From NCBI GenBank assembly GCA_947501625.1, contig CANMWN010000002.1:558001-622000 (forward strand): 64,000 nt of DNA, read 5' to 3'. The position numbers were made by a program, and so were the translations under genes. This stretch comes from an uncultured Flavobacteriaceae bacterium (GTDB lineage: Bacteria; Bacteroidota; Bacteroidia; Flavobacteriales; Flavobacteriaceae). A model generated the notes under the pieces. That model was not told the DNA's origin. It saw only the letters and a list, made by a program, of their open reading frames with translations, and searched no databases. Of this stretch, positions 35,954 through 46,146 are shown piece after piece (positions within the stretch are counted from its first letter, which is position 1; the number at the start of each line of letters is the position of its first letter).

Positions 35954-37237
35954 TTATTTATTTTTTGGTTCAATTTTTTTGTAAATATACTCCAATAAAA
36001 AACAAAATATAATTATCCCCAAAGCAATATAAACATCTGTTCTACTAACAGAAAAATGCTGAACTAATAAAGCAATCATTGCTACAAGACAAAATACAAA
36101 GCCAAATAATGGGATTACTTTTTTTCCATTTATCTCTCTTGAAAGTCTAAATCCTACAAAATTTACTACTGCAAATATTAATAAAAAACCAACACTTCCT
36201 GCAGTAGATATACTTTCAAGTTTCATAGTATTTACTATAATTATAGTCGCTAATGCAGTAATGAATAGTCCTATTGGTTGATTCCATAACTTTCGAGTAA
36301 ATTCTTTTGGCAATTCATCATCAACTGCAATTTCATAATTCACTCTACTTCCTCCATATAAAGAAGCATTAATAGCTGAAAAAGTAGAGATAAGCGCAGC
36401 AACTGTAATTATAGTAAATCCTATTTTTCCAAGCATAGGCTTAGCAGCTTCAGCCAAAACATAATCTTGGGCTGTTGCAATTTGACTAAACGCTAATGAT
36501 CCAACTGTTACTGTAGCAATAATTATATATAATAAAATCACGAAAAGGACTGACCAATAATAGGCTCTTGGAATGTTTTTGTTAGGATTTTCTATATCAG
36601 GAGCAGCATTTGCAATTAATTCAAAACCTTCATAAGCTACAAAAATGACCATTCCAGCAGTTAATAATTTAAATGGAGATTCCCAATGTTCTGGTGATAA
36701 TTGCTCTAAATGTGGATTTCCAAACAATCCGTAAACTCCAACTACAACAAAACTTAATAAAATTATTAATTTTATAACCACTGCATAAGATTCAATCTTG
36801 CCAACGACAGCAATACTATAATAGTTTATTGCTGTTGCAAAAATCACAATTGCTGTTGCATAAATGTGTGAATCAACTACTTTATCAGTTGTAAGTTCTA
36901 ACAAATTGGGTGCATAAGAGCCGAATGCCGATGCATAAAGTGCCAACATAATTATATAACTTACCCATAACAAATTATTTATTCCACCACTAAAAATTCC
37001 AATTCCAAAACCTTGATTTACAAACTTTACAGTTCCTCCTCTATCTGGATATTTAAGTGATAATTTTACATAACTATATGAAGTAATAAAAGCAATTAAA
37101 CCAGCAATCAAAAACGAAACTGGTGTTCCTCCTTTGGCGAGAGATGCGGCTAGACCTAGAACAGCAAAAATCCCACCACCAACCATTCCTCCAATTCCAA
37201 TTGACATAGCTTCTTTAAGCCCTATTTTTTTACTCAT
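35954..37237 (-). CDS. APC-family amino acid permease
   Basis: 427 residues with about 12 membrane helices. The N-terminal GIGGMVGGGIFAVLGLAASL is the glycine-rich first helix of the amino acid/polyamine/organocation superfamily. FVAYEGFELIANAAPDIENP in the middle is also typical. Substrate unknown. It is the first gene of the minus-strand run with MscS and YihY. A CAAATTTA (minus TAAATTTG) -7 box is at 37272-37265. Confidence 0.9.
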   Translation of the reverse strand: MSKKIGLKEAMSIGIGGMVGGGIFAVLGLAASLAKGGTPVSFLIAGLIAFITSYSYVKLSLKYPDRGGTVKFVNQGFGIGIFSGGINNLLWVSYIIMLALYASAFGSYAPNLLELTTDKVVDSHIYATAIVIFATAINYYSIAVVGKIESYAVVIKLIILLSFVVVGVYGLFGNPHLEQLSPEHWESPFKLLTAGMVIFVAYEGFELIANAAPDIENPNKNIPRAYYWSVLFVILLYIIIATVTVGSLAFSQIATAQDYVLAEAAKPMLGKIGFTIITVAALISTFSAINASLYGGSRVNYEIAVDDELPKEFTRKLWNQPIGLFITALATIIIVNTMKLESISTAGSVGFLLIFAVVNFVGFRLSREINGKKVIPLFGFVFCLVAMIALLVQHFSVSRTDVYIALGIIIFCFLLEYIYKKIEPKNK

Positions 37238-37305: not shown

Positions 37306-37890
37306 CTAATTCCTTTTTCTCAATATTTCCTCAATATCTGTCAATTTATAACCTTTGGCTTTTAGTAAAATTAAATAGTGATATAACAAATCTGCGGCTT
37401 CATTTTTAAATAAATTAGTATCGTTATCTTTTGCTTCTATCACCAATTCTACTGCTTCTTCCCCAACTTTTTGCGCTACTTTATTGATACCTTTTTTATA
37501 TAACTTATTGGTATAAGATGCTGAATCATTTTCATCTATTCGCTGGTGAATTATTTCTTCTAATTGGTATAAAAAACCTTTTGAAGTTTCTTCTTTAAAA
37601 CAACTAGTCGTTCCTGTATGACATGTCGGTCCTTTGGGAAGTGCTTTAATTAAAACAGTATCATTATCACAGTCAATTTGAATGTCTTTCACTTCCAAAA
37701 AGTTTCCTGACTCTTCACCTTTAGTCCATAACCTATTCTTGCTTCGGCTAAAAAAAGTAACTCTTTTTTCCTTGTTCGTTTTTTCTAATGCTTCTTCATT
37801 CATATAACCTAGCATCAATACTTGTAAAGTATAAACGCTTTGTATAATCACTGGAACTAATCCGTCTCCTTTTGTAAAATCTATTTTCAT
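37306..37890 (-). CDS. hisIE: phosphoribosyl-AMP cyclohydrolase / phosphoribosyl-ATP pyrophosphohydrolase
   Basis: 194 residues, two fused enzymes for steps 2 and 3 of histidine synthesis. HisI (residues 1-100) has GYMNEEALEKT and FFSRSKNRLWTKGEESGNFL, the metal site IDCDNDTV and the cysteines in PTCHTGTTSCF. HisE (about 110-194) has KVGEEAVELVIEAK and NEAADLLYHYLILL. It is the last gene of the his operon and overlaps hisF by 4 bases. Confidence 0.95.
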   Translation of the reverse strand: MKIDFTKGDGLVPVIIQSVYTLQVLMLGYMNEEALEKTNKEKRVTFFSRSKNRLWTKGEESGNFLEVKDIQIDCDNDTVLIKALPKGPTCHTGTTSCFKEETSKGFLYQLEEIIHQRIDENDSASYTNKLYKKGINKVAQKVGEEAVELVIEAKDNDTNLFKNEAADLLYHYLILLKAKGYKLTDIEEILRKRN

Positions 37891-38642
37891 AATCGTATTG
37901 GTATATTTTGTTCTAATAAATATTGTTTTAATTCTGGTATTGGTATTTCTCCATAATGAAAAATACTTGCTGCCAATCCTGCACTTATAGTGGTGTTTTT
38001 AAATAAATCAACAAAATGTTTTTTCAATCCTGCTCCGCCTGAAGCAATCACAGGAATATTAATTGAGTCACTCACTTTACTTGTTATATTTAGCGCAAAT
38101 CCACTTTTCGTTCCATCATTATTCATGGAAGTCAATAGAATTTCTCCTGCTCCTAATCGCTCAACTTCTTGCACCCATTCTATAGTTTTTAAAGGAGTAA
38201 TCGTTCTTCCTCCATGCATAAAAACCATCCATTCATCTTCTATCAACTTTGTATCTATTGCAACAACCATACATTGGGAACCAAATTTATCTGCAATATC
38301 TTTAATCAATTGTGGATTATTAATTGCACTCGAGTTTACACTTACTTTATCAGCTCCAGCTTTTATTAATCGTGCAGCATTTTCAAGCGAATTAATTCCT
38401 CCACCAACAGTAAATGGTATATTAATTTCTTGCGCAATTCTTTTAACCAATTCAATCAACGTTGCGCGCTTTTCAATTGTAGCAGTAATATCTAAAAAAA
38501 CCAATTCATCTGCACCTTGCTCAACATATTTTTTTGCCAATTCTATGGGATCTCCAGCATCTCGAATTCCTACAAAGTTGATTCCTTTTACAGTTCGTCC
38601 ATCCATAATATCTAGACATGGAATAATTCTCTTTTTTAGCAT
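37887..38642 (-). CDS. hisF: imidazole glycerol phosphate synthase, cyclase subunit
   Basis: 251 residues, a (beta/alpha)8 barrel that uses ammonia from HisH to form imidazole glycerol phosphate and AICAR. Catalytic Asp 11 is in [14 protein letters not shown], and the second Asp is in [10 protein letters not shown] (about residue 130). Phosphate-binding loops are FTVGGGINS and IASGGAG. It overlaps hisA by 7 bases. The antisense reading frame of 266 codons across it is a shadow. Confidence 0.96.
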
Positions 38643-39349
38643 AGTTCCTGTAGTTCTTTTAATGAAATATTTCCTTCATAAATTGCTTTACCAAGTATGG
38701 CTCCTTCACAACCCATTTCTTTTAACAATAATAAATCTTCCATACTTGAAACGCCTCCACTTGCTATCAAGTTTACATCCGTTTTTTTAAGTATTTCTTT
38801 ATACAACTCATTCGAAGTTCCTTGCAACATCCCATCTTTGGCAATATCAGTACAAATAACATATTGAATTCCTTTTTCTTCGTATGATTTTATAAAATCC
38901 AACACATCTAAATCAGATTTTTTCAACCAACCATTGGTAGCAATCTTCCTGTTATTACAATCTGCTCCTAAAATGATTTTTTGACTTCCATATTTTGAAA
39001 TCCACTGTTCAAATATTGTTGGATTATTAGCTGCAATACTTCCTCCAGTAATCTGAGAGGTTCCACATTCAAAGGCTATTTCTACATCTTTATCAGATTT
39101 TAATCCGCCTCCAAAATCAATTTTAAGATTCGTTTTAGATGCTATAGATTCTAATATTTTATGATTGATGATTTGCTTTGATTTTGCACCGTCCAAATCT
39201 ACCAAATGCAAATATTGAATTCCATTATCTTCAAATTCCTTCGCTACTTCTAGCGGATTTTCATTGTATATCTTCTTGGTGTTATAATCTCCTTTTGAGA
39301 GTCTTACACACTTTCCGTCTATAATATCTATTGCTGGTATTATTCTCAT
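38636..39349 (-). CDS. hisA: phosphoribosylformimino-5-aminoimidazole carboxamide ribotide isomerase
   Basis: 237 residues, an (beta/alpha)8 barrel related to HisF, catalysing the Amadori rearrangement of ProFAR. Catalytic Asp 8 is in [19 protein letters not shown], the second Asp in [14 protein letters not shown] (about residues 126-139), and the phosphate loops are IDFGGGLKS and IASGGVSS. It overlaps hisF by 7 bases and hisH by 4. Confidence 0.96.
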
Positions 39350-39924
39350 AACACTAAAAAGTTCTTCAATATTTGTTCACCAACTCCTGCCGATTTTTCT
39401 GGATGAAATTGCGTTGCATAAAAATTATCTTTTTGCAATGCTGCACTGAACGGAAAAATATAATCACAATTTGCACTTGTTTCTTCGCATAATTCCGCAT
39501 AAAAACTATGTACAAAATATACATCCTTTGGAGCGTTCATACTATTAAACAAATCTCCTTTTAATTCACTCAAACTATTCCATCCTATATGAGGTACTTT
39601 TTCTTTTGGCGGAAATAATTTCACATCCGAATTAAAAATACCTAAACAATCAACTGTACCTTCTTCACTAGAATTACACATCAATTGCATCCCCAAACAA
39701 ATGCCCAAAAAAGGCTGTTTTAACTCTTTTATAAATGCATCCAACTCATATTCTTTTAGATAACTCATTGCAGTGCTTGCTTCTCCAACTCCAGGTAAAA
39801 TCACTTTATCGGCACTCAAAATCTGTTCTTTATCTCGTGTGATAATAGACTCATAACCAAGCCTTTTTAGTGCGTTCTGAACCGAACTTATATTTCCTGC
39901 ATTATAATCTATAATCGCTATCAT
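39346..39924 (-). CDS. hisH: imidazole glycerol phosphate synthase, glutaminase subunit
   Basis: 192 residues, a class I glutamine amidotransferase that feeds ammonia to HisF. The nucleophile Cys is in [11 protein letters not shown] (about residue 76) and the His/Glu pair in [11 protein letters not shown] (about 175-185). The N-terminal [18 protein letters not shown] and PGVGEAS oxyanion loop are complete. It overlaps both neighbours by 4 bases. Confidence 0.96.
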
Positions 39925-41009
39925 ATGATTCCTTTTGTACTTGGTATTGAATAATTATCAGTCTTCTTAACTGCCATTTTAATCGCTTTCGCAAATGCTT
40001 TAAAAATAGATTCTATTTTGTGGTGTTCGTTTTCTCCTTCCGATTTTATATTCAAATTACTCTTTGAAGCATCTGTAAAAGATTTGAAAAAGTGCATGAA
40101 CATTTCGGTAGGCATCTCTCCTATCATTTCTCTTTTAAATTCCGTTTCCCAGACTAACCAAGGTCTTCCTCCAAAGTCAATGGCTACTTGCGTCAAGCAA
40201 TCATCCATAGGTAATAAAAATCCATATCGTTCAATTGCTTTTTTAGAACCTAATGCTTTACTAAATGCTTTACCTAAAGTAATGGCAACATCTTCAATTG
40301 TATGATGTTCATCTATTTCTAAATCTCCTTTTACACTGATTTTCAAGTCAATAGTTCCATGTTTTGAAATTTGTTCTAGCATGTGATCAAAGAAACCAAT
40401 GCCAGTAGAAATTTCACTTTTCCCATTTCCATCTAGATTAACCTCAACAGCAATTTCAGTTTCTTTCGTAACTCTCTTTGCATAACCAATTCTTGGCTTA
40501 GATTTTAAATACTGATAAATCTCGTTCCAATTGGTTGTAGAAACTACTACGTTTTCATTTTCATCACCAATAAAAATTCCTTGACATTTTAAGTTCATTG
40601 CCAATTCAATATCCGAATTTCTATCGCCTATCACAAATGAATTATTTAAATCATAATTCCCATAAATATACTTCTGTAACAATCCAGTTCTAGGTTTTCT
40701 TGTTGGCGCATTGTCTTCAGGAAAAGATTTATCTATTAATACCTCAGTAAATTCAATTCCTTCATTTTTAAATGCCTGAATAATTTTGTTTTGCGCTGGC
40801 CAAAAAGTGTCTTCTGGAAAGGAATCTGTTCCCAATCCATCTTGATTGGTTACCATAACCAACTCATAATCAAGTTCGTTGACAATTTTTGACAATCCTT
40901 GAAAAACTCCAGGATAAAACTCTAACTTTTCTAAACTATCTAACTGATAATCAATTGGTGGCTCAATAACCAAGGTTCCATCTCTATCTATAAATAATAC
41001 TTTTTTCAT
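39921..41009 (-). CDS. hisB: histidinol-phosphatase / imidazoleglycerol-phosphate dehydratase
   Basis: 362 residues from ATG 41009, which overlaps the hisC stop by 4 bases (ATGA). An upstream ATG at 41081 would add 24 residues without family likeness. The N-terminal domain is a HAD phosphatase ([13 protein letters not shown], then [12 protein letters not shown]); the C-terminal domain is the manganese-dependent dehydratase with [24 protein letters not shown] and [12 protein letters not shown]. It catalyses steps 6 and 8 of the pathway. Confidence 0.95.
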
Positions 41010-42037
41010 CTTGATATCTCGTTTAAAACATTCAATAATTTTTGATTTTCTTCTGCAGTTCCAATAGTGATTCTCAAGCAATTTTTAACTTGTGAATTTC
41101 GATTTCTAACAACAATTCCTTTGCCAATTAATTGAGTAAATATTGATTCAGAATCTTCAAATTCAACTAGTAAAAAATTGGCATCTGAAGGATAAATTTT
41201 TTGTACAAACAGCAAATTTAACAAGGCTATTCTTAGTCTTTTTCTTTCTATAATGATTTGCGCAATTTGTTCTTGGACATACTCTTTATTTTGTATTACT
41301 TCAAGTGCAGCTTTAATACTCAACGTATTGACATTATATGGCGGTTTTATCTTATTTAAAATCGTAATAATTTCTGGACTTGCAAATGCCATTCCTAGTC
41401 TTGCGCCTGCCAATCCGTAAGCTTTACTAAAAGTCTGCAACACCACTAAGTTTGGAATTTCTCCCAACAATGAAACTGCTCTTTTGTTAGGTGAAAAATC
41501 TATATAAGCCTCATCAATAACAACGATTCCTTTAAACTCGGCAGCAACTTGTCTGATACGTTCTAGTTCAATAGAATTTCCTGTAGGATTGTTGGGTGAA
41601 CAAATAAACAATAAGCCTCCTTCTTTTGTTTTAGAAGTTATGGTTTGTTGATTTGGCAATTCAAAAGTTTTGGTCAAAGGAATTTCAACCAACTCAACAT
41701 TATTGATTGCAGCTGACACTTTATACATTCCATAAGTTGGAGTAAAAATTGTCGCCTTATTTTTTCCAGGTTCACAGAATGCTCGGAATAATAAATCGAT
41801 GGCTTCATCACTTCCATTTCCTATAAATATTTGCTCTAAAGGAACATTCTTTAACTTTGAAATCTCTCCCTTCAATTGCAACTGCAATGGATCTGGATAT
41901 CGATTTAAGTTTGTTGTATTCGGATTTTCGTTTGCGTCCAACCAAACATCAGCCTTGCCTTTAAACTCACTTCTAGCAGAACTATACGCCTGCATATTGA
42001 GAATGTTTTTTCGAGTTATAGATTTTATATCAAACAT
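41006..42037 (-). CDS. hisC: histidinol-phosphate aminotransferase
   Basis: 343 residues, a fold-type I PLP enzyme that transfers an amino group from glutamate to imidazole acetol phosphate. The PLP lysine is in [15 protein letters not shown] (about residues 202-216), preceded by [10 protein letters not shown] and [25 protein letters not shown] is also typical. It overlaps hisB by 4 bases and hisD by 8. Confidence 0.95.
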
Positions 42038-43322
42038 TGTTTATCTCTTTTAATCTTAATGTAACTGCATTTTTATGTGCGAATAACTGCTCTGCTTCTG
42101 CCATCAATTCAATTGCTGGACCTATTGCTGTAATTCCCTCTTTATTCAATTTTTGAAAGGTGATTTTCTTTACAAAACTATCTAGTGAAACTCCACTATA
42201 ATTCTTTGCAAATCCATTGGTTGGTAATGTGTGATTGGTTCCACTTGCATAATCTCCAGCGCTTTCACAACTGTAATTCCCCAAAAATACAGAACCTACA
42301 TTTACAATTTTGTCAATAAAATTATCCGCGTTATTACTCGCAATAATCAAGTGTTCAGGAGCATATTGATTGCTAAAATCAATACAATCTTCCAAGTTTT
42401 TAAGCAAAATAGATTGACTGTTTTCTAATGCTTTTGTTGCCAATTCTTTTCTTGGCAATGCTGCTAATTGGATTTCTAATTCTTTCGTAACCTCAGCAAT
42501 AACTCGCTCATCATTTGACAATAAAATAACTTGACTGTCTGCTCCATGTTCGGCTTGGGATAATAAATCGGCTGCGACAAATGATGGATTGCAAGTTGCA
42601 TCAGCAATGATTAAAACTTCACTTGGTCCTGCAGGTAAATCAATCGCAATTCCTTCTTGTTGGATCAATTCTTTTGCCTTTGCTACAAACTGATTTCCTG
42701 GTCCAAAAACCTTATACACTTGCGGAATCGTTTCTGTTCCGTACGTCATTGCTCCTATTGCTTGTGCGCCACCAACTTTAAATATCTTTGTCACACCAAC
42801 CAATGATGCGGTATATAAAATTACTGGATTAACATTTCCGTTTGTATCTGGAGGTGTACACAATATAATTTCTTTACATCCTGCAATTTTCGCTGGAATT
42901 GCCAACATCAAAATCGTTGAAAATAACGGTGCAGTTCCTCCAGGAATATACAATCCAACTTTTTCTATAGCTACGCTTTTTCTCCAACATTTTACGCCTT
43001 TGGTAGTTTCAACTATCGGTTCTACTGTATTTTGAGAACTGTGAAACTTTTCAATATTTGATTTTGCTAATGCAATTGCATTTTTCAAGTCTTCAGAGAC
43101 TAAAGAATTCGCTTTGCTTATCTCATTTTTACTCACTTCCAATGAAGTAAACTCGACTTTATCAAATTGTTTGGTGAAATCTAACAATGCTTTATCACCT
43201 TTCTTCTTTACTTCACCTAAAATCTCAGAAACCGTTTTTGTAAACTGATTTCTTTCAAATTCTGGTCTTTTGGAAAGTGTTTCCCAATCTTTTCTCTTCG
43301 GATATTTAATTGTGTTCATCAT
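42030..43322 (-). CDS. hisD: histidinol dehydrogenase
   Basis: 430 residues, the NAD-dependent enzyme that turns L-histidinol into L-histidine with zinc. Marks are GLYIPGGTAPLFSTILM, the VFGPGNQFVAKAKEL loop, DLPAGPSEVLIIADA, SQAEHGADSQV (zinc ligands) and the catalytic His in YAPEHLIIA. Two adjacent ATG codons (43322 and 43319) exist; the first overlaps the hisG stop as ATGA and is preferred. Confidence 0.96.
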   Translation of the reverse strand: MMNTIKYPKRKDWETLSKRPEFERNQFTKTVSEILGEVKKKGDKALLDFTKQFDKVEFTSLEVSKNEISKANSLVSEDLKNAIALAKSNIEKFHSSQNTVEPIVETTKGVKCWRKSVAIEKVGLYIPGGTAPLFSTILMLAIPAKIAGCKEIILCTPPDTNGNVNPVILYTASLVGVTKIFKVGGAQAIGAMTYGTETIPQVYKVFGPGNQFVAKAKELIQQEGIAIDLPAGPSEVLIIADATCNPSFVAADLLSQAEHGADSQVILLSNDERVIAEVTKELEIQLAALPRKELATKALENSQSILLKNLEDCIDFSNQYAPEHLIIASNNADNFIDKIVNVGSVFLGNYSCESAGDYASGTNHTLPTNGFAKNYSGVSLDSFVKKITFQKLNKEGITAIGPAIELMAEAEQLFAHKNAVTLRLKEINNV

Positions 43323-44176
43323 ACTACCATTTTATCAATTGGAACCACTAAAATTCCTTCAGCACCAGCAGTTTTTAATTCGTCAATAACTTCCCAAAAC
43401 TCGTTTTCTTCAATTACACTGTGCAATGAACTCCAGCCTTCTTGCGCCAATGGCAAAATAGTTGGACTTTTTAAAACCGGTAAAATTGAAGTTATTTTTT
43501 CAATGTTTTCATTCGGCACATTCATTAAAATATATTTAGTGTTTTTGGCTCTCAATACTGCTTGAATTCTAAATAATAGTTTGGCTAAAATCTTCTCCTT
43601 TTCATTAGATAAGTTGATGCCTTTAGCAAGAACAGCCTGTGATTCTAAGATGACTTGTGTTTCTTTCAAGCCATTTTTAAAAAGGGTACTTCCTGAACTT
43701 ACGATATCACATATTCCATCGGCAAGACCAATATTTGGAGCAATTTCTACCGAACCAGAAATCACATGAATATCTGCTTTGATATTGTTTTTGTCAAGAT
43801 ATGCTTGAACAGTATTTGGATACGAAGTTGCTATCTTTTTTCCTTCAAAATAGTTTAACGATTCATTCGAAACTTCTTTGGGTACAGCCAATGAAACTCT
43901 ACATTTTGAGAAACCTAATTTCTCAACAATCTCTAGTTGCTTTTGTTTTTCTATCAATAAGTTCTCACCAACAATGGCAATATCTACAACTCCATCTTCT
44001 AAGTATTGAGGAATATCGGAGTTTCGAAGGTATAATAACTCTATTGGGAAATTGGGTACTTCAACTTTGAGTTGATCAATACCATTTTTAATGTTGATTC
44101 CGCAACTTTTTAAGAGTTTGATGGAATCTTCATTTAGTCTTCCACTTTTTTGAATGGCTATTTTAAGTTTACTCAT
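43319..44176 (-). CDS. hisG: ATP phosphoribosyltransferase, long form
   Basis: 285 residues, the first enzyme of histidine synthesis. The length shows the long, HisZ-independent form with a C-terminal regulatory domain for histidine feedback. Features are IAIQKSGRLNEDSIKLLKSC at the N-terminus, the PRPP-binding loop DGICDIVSSGSTLFKNGL (about residues 150-167) and the C-terminal LVVPIDKMVV. It is the first gene of the operon, 45 bases after the attenuator hairpin. Confidence 0.95.
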   Translation of the reverse strand: MSKLKIAIQKSGRLNEDSIKLLKSCGINIKNGIDQLKVEVPNFPIELLYLRNSDIPQYLEDGVVDIAIVGENLLIEKQKQLEIVEKLGFSKCRVSLAVPKEVSNESLNYFEGKKIATSYPNTVQAYLDKNNIKADIHVISGSVEIAPNIGLADGICDIVSSGSTLFKNGLKETQVILESQAVLAKGINLSNEKEKILAKLLFRIQAVLRAKNTKYILMNVPNENIEKITSILPVLKSPTILPLAQEGWSSLHSVIEENEFWEVIDELKTAGAEGILVVPIDKMVV

Positions 44177-44220
44177 TTTATTTTTTTTGATGTGCTTGAG
44201 TAAACCTTAGGAAGTGTATA

Positions 44221-44256
44221 AAAACAAAAAACCGTTTGATTTACTCAAACGGTTTT
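44221..44256 (-). terminator. his operon attenuator (rho-independent terminator)
   Basis: Minus strand: stem AAAACCGTTTGA / TCAAACGGTTTT, loop GTAAA, followed by a T-rich run. It lies between the leader peptide and hisG. Its 5' arm and loop contain TTGAGTAAA, which can pair instead with ACTCAA at the end of the leader ORF (plus coordinates 44299-44304) or with TTTACTCAA just downstream (44196-44204), giving alternative structures expected for attenuation. Confidence 0.85.
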
Positions 44257-44283
44257 AGAAATTTTATAGGTAGATTACATATA

Positions 44284-44346
44284 TCACTTTCTGCTCGCTT
44301 GAGTGCAAGTATGAAAATGATGATGATGTAATTGATTTGTGTTCAT
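44284..44346 (-). CDS. hisL: his operon leader peptide
   Basis: 20 codons, ATG at 44346 and TGA at 44286-44284. Residues 7-10 and 12 are histidine, all CAT (LHHHHFH). It starts 18 bases after the -7 box of a near-perfect promoter and ends 28 bases before the terminator hairpin. This is the layout of a translation-coupled attenuator: ribosomes stalling at His codons when charged tRNA-His is scarce should expose an alternative pairing and let transcription reach hisG. The peptide itself likely has no other role. Confidence 0.86.
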   Translation of the reverse strand: MNTNQLHHHHFHTCTQASRK

Positions 44347-44364
44347 TGTTTTTAAATATTGGTT

Positions 44365-44395
44365 CAAAGATATATTCTTTTTAAAAACCTGCAAA
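44365..44395 (-). promoter_or_regulatory. promoter of the his operon
   Basis: Minus strand: TTTG at 44395-44392, 19-base spacer, TATCTTTG at 44372-44365. The leader ATG follows after 18 bases. Confidence 0.78.
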
Positions 44396-44463
44396 TTCTT
44401 TTGGAAATATTTTTAATTAAAGTTGCGATAGCGGTTTCGTAGTTAAAGAATAATTATTAAATA

Positions 44464-46146
44464 TTATTTCATTTTCCAACAATTAATCGCATCATTTGCA
44501 AACTGATTCTGTCTGACGCTAATAGACTTCTTAGTCCATTGAGAATCTATAGAAATTTCTTTTGTAATAATAAATTCTGAATCGGTAAATATTGGTGATT
44601 TCTCTTCAAAACTTTTATTACCTATTCGAGAGTTCTTTCTAGAGTTTAAAATAGTCATATTACCTAACCTTTTGAAGTATAATTTATGTTCATCTTCATC
44701 AAATCCTGACCAATTTTCATTCATTTTTTTAGGAAGTATATGTTCCAAATTAACCACGGTCTCATCATTATTTGGTATTAATTCAGAACCTTGGTCGTTA
44801 CGTCTAAAATTTTCAATTGTTGAAAGAATATATTTTGCAATTGTTGAATTTGATATAGTAAATGTTTGAAACGCTTCTTTAAATCGCTCATCACTAGGAG
44901 TTAATGACTTTAAACCTTCAAGTAGATCATCTTGGTTTTTAATTTCTTCATTTCTAATCTTCATAGCTGTAATGGAGAAATGTCTTTCAAAAACACCACT
45001 GCTTAAAGTACCCGAAACAATTAACCTCACAATTAATGATACAATAGAATTTAGAGATTTTTCCGTTTCTTTTTTGTTAAACTTAGGTAACATCGAAAGT
45101 AATAACGGTCTGATTTGTACCATTCCTAAATCATTAATAGTGCGGATATTTTTCCTAGTCGATGTGCTAAATTCCGACCAATAGCGATGGTCTGAATACA
45201 GTAAAGCAGTGTAAAGGTTTGAATTGTCAGCAAGTTGATTAGAAAACTCAAGAGCTTTAGTTTTTGTTTTAACAGTATCTTTAATTTTATTATAGAGTTC
45301 TTTTTCTCTTACATTTCCATAATAAGAAGCCCATAAATATTTAATATAAGGTACGACAGTAGAGTTATTATCGGCAGACTCTAATACACTCACCATAGTA
45401 ATCCAATTTTGTTGCGCTTGTTTAATTGCACTAGCAGATTTATGGAAGAGATAATTTTTAAGTAAATCTGATATTGCTAAATCTAATCCTCTATCATTTA
45501 GAGTTTCAAATATTGTAAAAGCATTAGCATAATCTGGTACTTCAACCCAAATCACCTTTACTTTAGATTCAATATATTCAACCCAATCAATCAAAACATC
45601 AGAATTCTGATTATTAGCGTCTAAAATTTGAGTCAGTTTACTTTGAATTGCTTTTTTTGCATTGAGTAATTTTTGATGACTTAGTCGAAGATCTTTTTTT
45701 GTGCTTTGGTTTGGTTTGTCATTTAAAACATGAGAAAAGAAAAAATCATGGTCATTATCGTTTAAAATTAATCTCGGTACATCTTCTTCTGATCTTAACT
45801 CATGAGTCATAAGAAAATCATTAGAGATTTGAAAAGCTTTACGCTCGTTACCTTCTTTTTCAAAGATTGACTTAATACTGTTAATTATTATTGTAATTGT
45901 TGCTAACCTTTGTTGACCATCAACAACCTCAGACCTATCATTTTCATTATTCTTAACAACGATTGATCCGATAAAATACTCTTTTTCTTCATTCTTTAAA
46001 GCATTTGAAATGTCAATTAAAAGATCATTGACATGCTTTTCTTCCCATGCATAATCTCTTTGATATTTCGGAACAATAAGTCCTTTTAACTTTAAATATT
46101 GTCCTATCCCTTTTAATGAGATGTTAATTTTATCCAATTGACTCAT
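44464..46146 (-). CDS. DUF262-DUF1524 protein, GmrSD/BrxU-like candidate nuclease
   Basis: 560 residues. The N-terminal DUF262 domain (ParB/Srx fold) shows VPKYQRDYAWE (about residues 25-35), EYFIGSIVV and the DGQQR motif (residues 76-80) thought to bind and hydrolyse nucleotide. The middle is helical. The C-terminal DUF1524 domain carries an HNH-like site (NLEHILPKKMNENW with His 469, then YFKRLGNMTILNSRKNSRIGN; about residues 466-520). This is the fused GmrS-GmrD layout of type IV restriction enzymes that cut modified phage DNA, such as GmrSD and BrxU. Defence is inferred; no methylase, integrase or other defence gene is beside it. Confidence 0.85.
   Translation of the reverse strand: MSQLDKINISLKGIGQYLKLKGLIVPKYQRDYAWEEKHVNDLLIDISNALKNEEKEYFIGSIVVKNNENDRSEVVDGQQRLATITIIINSIKSIFEKEGNERKAFQISNDFLMTHELRSEEDVPRLILNDNDHDFFFSHVLNDKPNQSTKKDLRLSHQKLLNAKKAIQSKLTQILDANNQNSDVLIDWVEYIESKVKVIWVEVPDYANAFTIFETLNDRGLDLAISDLLKNYLFHKSASAIKQAQQNWITMVSVLESADNNSTVVPYIKYLWASYYGNVREKELYNKIKDTVKTKTKALEFSNQLADNSNLYTALLYSDHRYWSEFSTSTRKNIRTINDLGMVQIRPLLLSMLPKFNKKETEKSLNSIVSLIVRLIVSGTLSSGVFERHFSITAMKIRNEEIKNQDDLLEGLKSLTPSDERFKEAFQTFTISNSTIAKYILSTIENFRRNDQGSELIPNNDETVVNLEHILPKKMNENWSGFDEDEHKLYFKRLGNMTILNSRKNSRIGNKSFEEKSPIFTDSEFIITKEISIDSQWTKKSISVRQNQFANDAINCWKMK

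Follow-up and report, generated by a model that had tools for sequence, protein, structure and literature searches.

The his operon of this uncultured flavobacterium raises two questions, namely whether its transcription is governed by a histidine leader peptide, and what is contributed by a strand, here called element 5, that lies beyond the terminator and can pair both with the 5' arm and loop of the terminator and with the hisG start codon. Classical attenuation schemes usually end at the terminator, and we know of no counterpart of element 5 in the scheme of the enteric his attenuator. We analyzed the locus within the window, that is, the whole stretch of 64,000 nucleotides, and compared it with regions upstream of hisG in other genomes.

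The source assembly comprises 2.66 Mb in 11 contigs. On the minus strand the locus reads promoter, leader ORF, terminator, spacer, hisG and the remaining his genes (Table 1). The preliminary description of this DNA had claimed a 20-codon leader ORF with five His codons, a terminator and a his operon, all of which were confirmed in the sequence, with Pfam backing the operon genes. As read from its ORFs, the his operon downstream of the attenuator is complete; for hisC, hisN, hisH, hisA and hisF we use the names that we take to apply from gene order and general knowledge. The terminator core with its T tract is the sole terminator-like site in 43900-44700 (0.3 expected from shuffles), and 44 nt of spacer separate the T tract from the hisG start. 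The promoter that had been claimed is likewise present, and TAnnTTTG, the Bacteroidetes-specific promoter sequence according to the available text of PMC6414381, was found at most 45 nt upstream of the leader start at 122 of the 217 loci for which a leader was called, where shuffles predict 5.7. An E. coli-type promoter scan missed the his promoter.

Table 1. Features of the his leader and operon, with positions in the window.
Feature	Position	Strand	Description and basis
Promoter	44365..44395	-	TTTG 44395-44392, 19-nt spacer, TATCTTTG 44372-44365; sequence
Leader ORF	44284..44346	-	20 codons, MNTNQLHHHHFHTCTQASRK; CAT = codons 7-10 and 12
Region 1	44313..44332	-	His-codon stretch, pairs with region 1'; window RNA fold, swap test
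Region 2	44296..44304	-	ACUCAAGCG, antiterminator strand within leader ORF; 2:3 covariation, swap test
Region 1'	44274..44291	-	Around and after leader stop codon, partner of region 1; fold, swap test
Intrinsic terminator 3:4	44221..44256	-	12-bp hairpin and T tract; hairpin core 44256-44228
Region 3	44238..44256	-	5' arm and loop of the terminator plus the first two 3'-arm bases; common to 2, 4 and 5
Element 5	44194..44206	-	GGUUUACUCAAGC, post-terminator; 13 positions with region 3, two of them G-U
hisG	43319..44176	-	Pfam HisG and HisG_C
hisG start	44167..44176	-	AUGAGUAAAC, second possible partner of element 5; window fold, synonymous test, weak covariation
hisD, hisC, hisNB, hisH, hisA, hisF, hisIE	37306..43322	-	ORFs and Pfam

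Regions upstream of hisG were pooled from a family sample (the 110 best-scoring of 166 family genomes with a hisG match), a named sample (54 contigs, one without a gene start) and a phylum sample (67 new places out of 252, picked by score and choice), which gave 230 usable and 222 unique loci. From an early set of 81 loci, nine had been left out (L068 and L082 were misparsed, five had no suitable terminator or spacer and two were duplicates). A His-cluster ORF, defined as being up to 45 codons long and having three or more His in a stretch of seven, was found at 212 of the 222 unique loci, as compared with about 2 expected from shuffles and 3/222 on the opposite strand. Such ORFs occurred at 107/110 loci of the family sample, 51/51 unique named loci, 16/16 loci mostly from one genus of the same family (L171-L192) and 38/45 loci of other families (L167-L170 and L193-L233). 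They were accompanied by a terminator of score 27 or higher at 194/222 unique loci, and the absence of both features from orthologous loci, which had been named as counter-evidence, did not occur. By these comparisons of sequence, the his attenuator is real and spread over many families of the phylum.

Candidate attenuators in Bacteroidetes/Chlorobi were reportedly described by Vitreschak in 2004. Strong clues for leader-peptide attenuation at amino acid operons of Flavobacterium psychrophilum are given in the accessible sections of PMC9723704, which deal with an element of this kind from the same phylum and mention, in those sections, neither histidine nor a pairing past the terminator. We regard the attenuator core as being of a known kind because leader-peptide attenuation has already been published for flavobacteria in that paper, and the earlier view that attenuation here is inferred from Proteobacteria alone no longer holds. 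The available part of PMC9413887 covers his attenuators of Proteobacteria and Firmicutes and does not contain the string 'Bacteroid'. The enterobacterial his leader (Rfam RF00514; same part of PMC9413887) shares tandem His codons, terminator, antiterminator and a complete operon with the present locus, which differs from it by a Bacteroidota promoter and the extra post-terminator element 5. An Rfam scan of the window found no family at gathering score, including RF00514 His_leader and RF01692. RF00514 gave no match in 44100-44420 at E values up to 10, RF01692 (Bacteroid-trp) none in the window or in 44100-44420, and sub-threshold Rfam matches on the minus strand were centred on the terminator hairpin. 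Bacteroid-trp RNA, listed in the available text of PMC2864571 (see also the corresponding part of PMC6414381), is likewise a candidate amino acid attenuator of Bacteroidetes, but for trp. Short Bacteroides ORFs reminiscent of attenuation leaders appear in the consulted portion of PMC7366714, and that of PMC8305728, on his genes across the superphylum, refers to attenuation only in general terms. The portions of PMC4833913 and PMC1262725 that we consulted hold nothing on his attenuation in this phylum. In the parts consulted of the open-access literature we found no description of a conserved post-terminator strand, and as far as these searches reach, element 5 is new.

Pairings were tested at 161 loci with a CCGTYTG-type terminator core and a spacer of at least 25 nt. 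In the swap test, native partners were compared with partners exchanged between loci over 2000 permutations. Native partners were stronger for 1:1' (-10.56 versus -8.23 kcal/mol) and for 2:3 (-12.01 versus -10.88 kcal/mol), and none of the 2000 permutations was as good in either case; a made-up control pairing, 2:1', showed no difference (-5.05 native versus -5.11 swapped). Compensatory changes, which the preliminary description had proposed to look for, were counted in an alignment of 75 loci less than 86% alike (A1). Both sides had changed at 6/12 pairs of 3:4, 4/9 pairs of 2:3 and 10/13 pairs of 3:5, and for each of the three the count of two-sided changes was reached by 0/500 shuffles; for 2:3 both sides had changed in 40 cells, compared with 7.9 after shuffling. 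The proportion of paired cells was 98.0% for 3:4, and across the three pairings it dropped from 92-98% to 18-55% when the partner was slid by one to three columns, the paired percentage in A1 being inflated because all of its loci were chosen for having element 5.

The comparison makes it highly probable that 1:1', 2:3, 3:4 and 3:5 are true competing pairings. The hairpin across the regulatory His codons, 1:1', is present in both swap test and fold, and one fold suggests that it would hide region 2. The antiterminator 2:3, seen in swap test and covariation, excludes the terminator, and its first strand follows closely on the regulatory codons. Region 3 is used differently by its partners, since 2:3 takes 44251-44243 in a pairing of 9 positions and 3:5 takes 44250-44238 in one of 13. 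Within these stretches, TTGAGTAAA of region 3 pairs with ACTCAA (44304-44299) in 2:3 and with TTTACTCAA in 3:5, and the double pairing proposed at the outset is thus possible on both sides. The textbook attenuator that had been recognized stands as regards His codons, terminator and antiterminator, but has to be extended by element 5, which is conserved and covaries after the terminator. Its sequence TTTACTCAA had been read as an alternative partner of the terminator arm, and this is borne out by conservation and covariation. A role of element 5 as antiterminator was ruled out, as it is transcribed only past the termination point.

The evidence for 3:5 does not depend on the choice of loci in A1, since the swap test, the pair-count test and the one-per-loop test were run without selection for pairing. 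Native partners gave -12.47 versus -9.04 kcal/mol for swapped ones (161 loci; 0/2000 permutations as good), and at least 11 of 12 pairs were present at 107/161 loci, as compared with 4.0 expected from shuffled and 36.7 from swapped spacers. Relatedness was handled by taking one locus per distinct loop. There are 48 distinct loops at the 161 loci, and 33 of these occur where element 5 is present. With one locus for each of the 48, the values were 10.12 versus 9.25 pairs, no permutation being as high (20 draws of 500). The loop bases of region 3 lie outside 3:4 and mostly outside 2:3, yet they change together with element 5, as in the loop/element 5 combinations GACAA/TTGTTTC, GTACA/TGTAC, GTCAT/ATGGC, GCAATT/AATTGC and GTGAA/TTCAT. 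It is well supported by these sequence comparisons that element 5 is under selection for pairing with region 3.

Under a strict rule (at least 75% of region 3 paired, with 8 Watson-Crick pairs), element 5 was present at 121 of the 161 tested loci and is dispensable, because the other 40 do without it. It was found at 64/98 tested loci of the family sample, 42/45 of the named sample, 11/14 of L171-L192 and 4/4 from other families, where 41/45 loci have other terminators and were unscored. The 61 of 222 loci unscored for element 5 consist of 53 without the CCGTYTG terminator pattern and 8 (of 169 with the pattern) whose spacer of less than 25 nt leaves no room for it; by duplex energy alone (-13.2 to -15.9), the pattern-unmatched L172, L194 and L197 are element 5-like. 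Named isolates with element 5 include Crocinitomix catalasitica, Lutimonas halocynthiae, Myroides sp. and Reichenbachiella faecimaris. Across the 121 loci, mean duplex or hairpin energies were -16.8 for 3:4, -15.4 for 3:5, -12.6 for 2:3 and -8.9 for element 5 with the start; 3:5 was stronger than 2:3 in 106/121 loci, and 3:4 stronger than 3:5 in 79/121.

How these pairings might work together can be set out stepwise. With histidine plentiful, a ribosome at the leader stop codon would mask region 2, so that 3:4 would form and transcription terminate; with histidine scarce, a ribosome stalled on the CAT codons would allow 2:3 to form and RNA polymerase to continue. By analogy with known attenuators, such histidine-dependent masking and stalling very likely decides between 3:4 and 2:3. 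Element 5 lies beyond the termination point and can therefore act solely in read-through RNA. There it would enter region 3 through the loop bases that region 2 leaves unused; we infer that this loop part, free in 2:3, could serve as a toehold before the hisG start is made. Element 5 would then displace region 2 from region 3, become unavailable to the hisG start and leave hisG open. In leaky read-through RNA, region 3 would be locked in 3:4, and the free element 5 would pair with the hisG start and close it. The decision of the stalled ribosome would thereby be checked twice, at transcription and then at translation initiation. Taken as a whole, a ribosome-mediated his transcription attenuator with an added post-terminator switch strand has, from the sequences compared, an even chance of being the right description.

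Since element 5 is also able to pair with the start codon of hisG, our best guess is that its role lies in the translation of this gene. The complementarity of the two (GUUUACUC with GAGUAAAC) is shared by many relatives with the window, whose RNA fold places the start codon inside a hairpin with element 5. At the 97 element 5 loci whose hisG begins with NUGAG, the native codons paired with the spacer at -10.04 versus -5.05 for synonymous recodings, and were stronger in 93/97. The end of element 5 lies 12-26 nt from the hisG start in 112/121 loci; between terminator core and element 5 there are 5 to 110 nt, with half of the loci at 20-26. The A content of the 12 nt that precede the start is 68% (121 element 5 loci). 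At each of the four loci with AGC as second codon, the element facing it carries the matching G (TGCTC), two of these four loci being relatives and one, L069, failing the strict rule, and AGC occurred at 0/77 AUGAGY loci with ACTCA in the spacer. These data are suggestive only, and element 5 may possibly pass the decision of the attenuator on to hisG translation. More tentatively, the system could be a protein-free two-stage attenuator, in which the ribosome sets termination and the post-terminator strand relays the state of region 3 to hisG translation. TRAP exerts dual control over trp of Bacillus subtilis, which combines attenuation with sequestration of a start in read-through RNA, as proposed here; there the protein TRAP binds the RNA, whereas here the only agents would be a stalled ribosome and RNA pairing. 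In Bacteroidota, translation of most genes is said to begin without Shine-Dalgarno pairing.

Folding energies bear on how such a relay would have to operate. With a stalled ribosome, the equilibrium energies of the window RNA were -44.5 for 3:4, -35.2 for 2:3 with a closed start and -32.8 for 3:5, and the free window RNA also preferred 3:4 (-53.1 versus -42.3). Because equilibrium favours the closed start and 3:4, the translational step needs kinetic, co-transcriptional folding. Forcing 3:5 in place of 3:4 raised start accessibility from 0.39 to 0.58 at the 97 NUGAG loci (gain above 0.2 in 44, loss in 1) and from 0.56 to 0.70 at the 24 element 5 loci with other starts (gain in 11, loss in 2), a weak test because removing any partner raises accessibility.

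The alternative that survives best holds that element 5 acts in cis without the start codon, by blocking the re-forming of the terminator or by shaping or protecting the 5' end, and that conserved MSKL codons explain why it happens to match the hisG start. We consider it unlikely, less so than the explanations that follow. Several observations agree with it. The pairing 3:5 persists where hisG has a start other than NUGAG (24 of 121 loci), and these loci show no excess of start pairing (-4.26 versus -4.64; 8/24). Part of the excess is untied to element 5, because some of it is also seen at the 10 NUGAG loci that lack this element (-7.26 versus -5.18; 7/10), and part reflects common usage and descent, because the codon-2 Ser of other genes is often AGY (15/26) and AGY is inherited. 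Covariation between element 5 and start is weak (score 0.188 versus 0.161, 7/500; pairs changed on both sides, 89/500), and hisG codon 3 gave p=0.02. Twenty loci have GACAA or GATAA loops, and therefore an element 5 that no longer matches an AUGAGU start; all 20 kept AUGAGU. In favour of a role for the start codon, 17 of the 20 carry ACTCAT in the spacer, complementary to their own AUGAGU, these loci being one related group. The preference of native over synonymous start codons and the steady distance of element 5 from the start also argue against this alternative, and we know of no harm done by a terminator hairpin within an mRNA, which counts against a need to keep the terminator from re-forming.

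An action in trans is improbable. Under this explanation, region 3 and the loop of the terminated leader, an RNA that would be abundant when histidine is plentiful, would pair with element 5 of full his mRNAs and affect hisG translation or mRNA decay. The rnTrpL RNA of Sinorhizobium is a precedent for trans-acting attenuator RNA, and another is a Listeria attenuating leader that doubles as a trans sRNA, according to the available text of PMC11394854. The complementarity of element 5 to the loop as well as to the arm would fit. However, a 12-bp hairpin whose loop is short ties up region 3 in the terminated RNA, and a leader pairing with element 5 would open the hisG start, which is the wrong sign for feedback.

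It is very improbable that the locus is an ordinary attenuator in which element 5 is a functionless relic or a chance repeat. The quarter of tested loci that lack element 5 would agree with such a relic, as would its apparent absence from the trp and ilv leaders of relatives, where pairing between arm and spacer was mostly near that of shuffled sequences. These comprised 20 trp loci, 19 with a terminator call (none in L300) and at least L287, L288 and L291 with a wrong, pre-leader hairpin, and 20 ilv loci given, of which 2 were not found. In L271, L305 and L324 the pairing between arm and spacer was about 3-5 kcal/mol stronger than shuffled, which we judged to be chance, and the 12 thr leaders given are no fair test because a good T tract was absent from most of the hairpins picked. 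Against a relic stand the many distinct loops with matched changes in element 5 and the two-sided changes along 3:5. It is scarcely credible that a repressor binds arm 3 and element 5 as an inverted repeat in DNA. An inverted repeat does lie upstream of a biosynthetic operon, but a protein site would conserve sequence, whereas here sequence varies while complementarity stays, and the distance between terminator core and element 5 is far from fixed, though half of the loci cluster.

Returning to the switch strand proposed above, a covarying strand past the terminator indicates that selection acts on the refolding of read-through RNA across many Flavobacteriales and also in certain other Bacteroidota. 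Should element 5 control hisG translation, it would follow that an amino acid attenuator is able to proofread leaky read-through, and the locus would offer a clean RNA system for the opening and closing of a start codon where Shine-Dalgarno pairing is rare and transcription-translation coupling uncertain.

The leaders of other operons showed features of their own. Those of trpE (L287-L306) carry WWW, and their terminator is GGCTTATC-TCAC-GATAAGCC in 12 of the 19 with a terminator call; in 7/19 it lies only 11-13 nt before trpE. Several Thr/Ile-rich thrA leaders (L317-L328) end in TL or MTL and have a hairpin like ACCCTTTAGGGGT, with the stop codon inside and lacking a clear T tract, and a different mechanism may apply to them.

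Directly upstream of the his promoter lies a gene for a GmrSD-type restriction enzyme (44464-46146, minus strand). Just behind hisIE, an amino acid permease gene (35954-37237, minus strand) follows, whose link to histidine is a guess. The closest named relatives of hisG, at 91-92%, are those of a MAG called Lutibacter sp. and of an uncultured Flavobacteriaceae MAG. Within the genus, hisG is 91-92% like that of two members and 65-68% like that of the other eight with a match; outside it, values of 77-80% occur in several genera of the family and one of 87% in a Flavobacteriales MAG. From these values, the his operon (37306-44176) looks as if it had been transferred into part of its genus.
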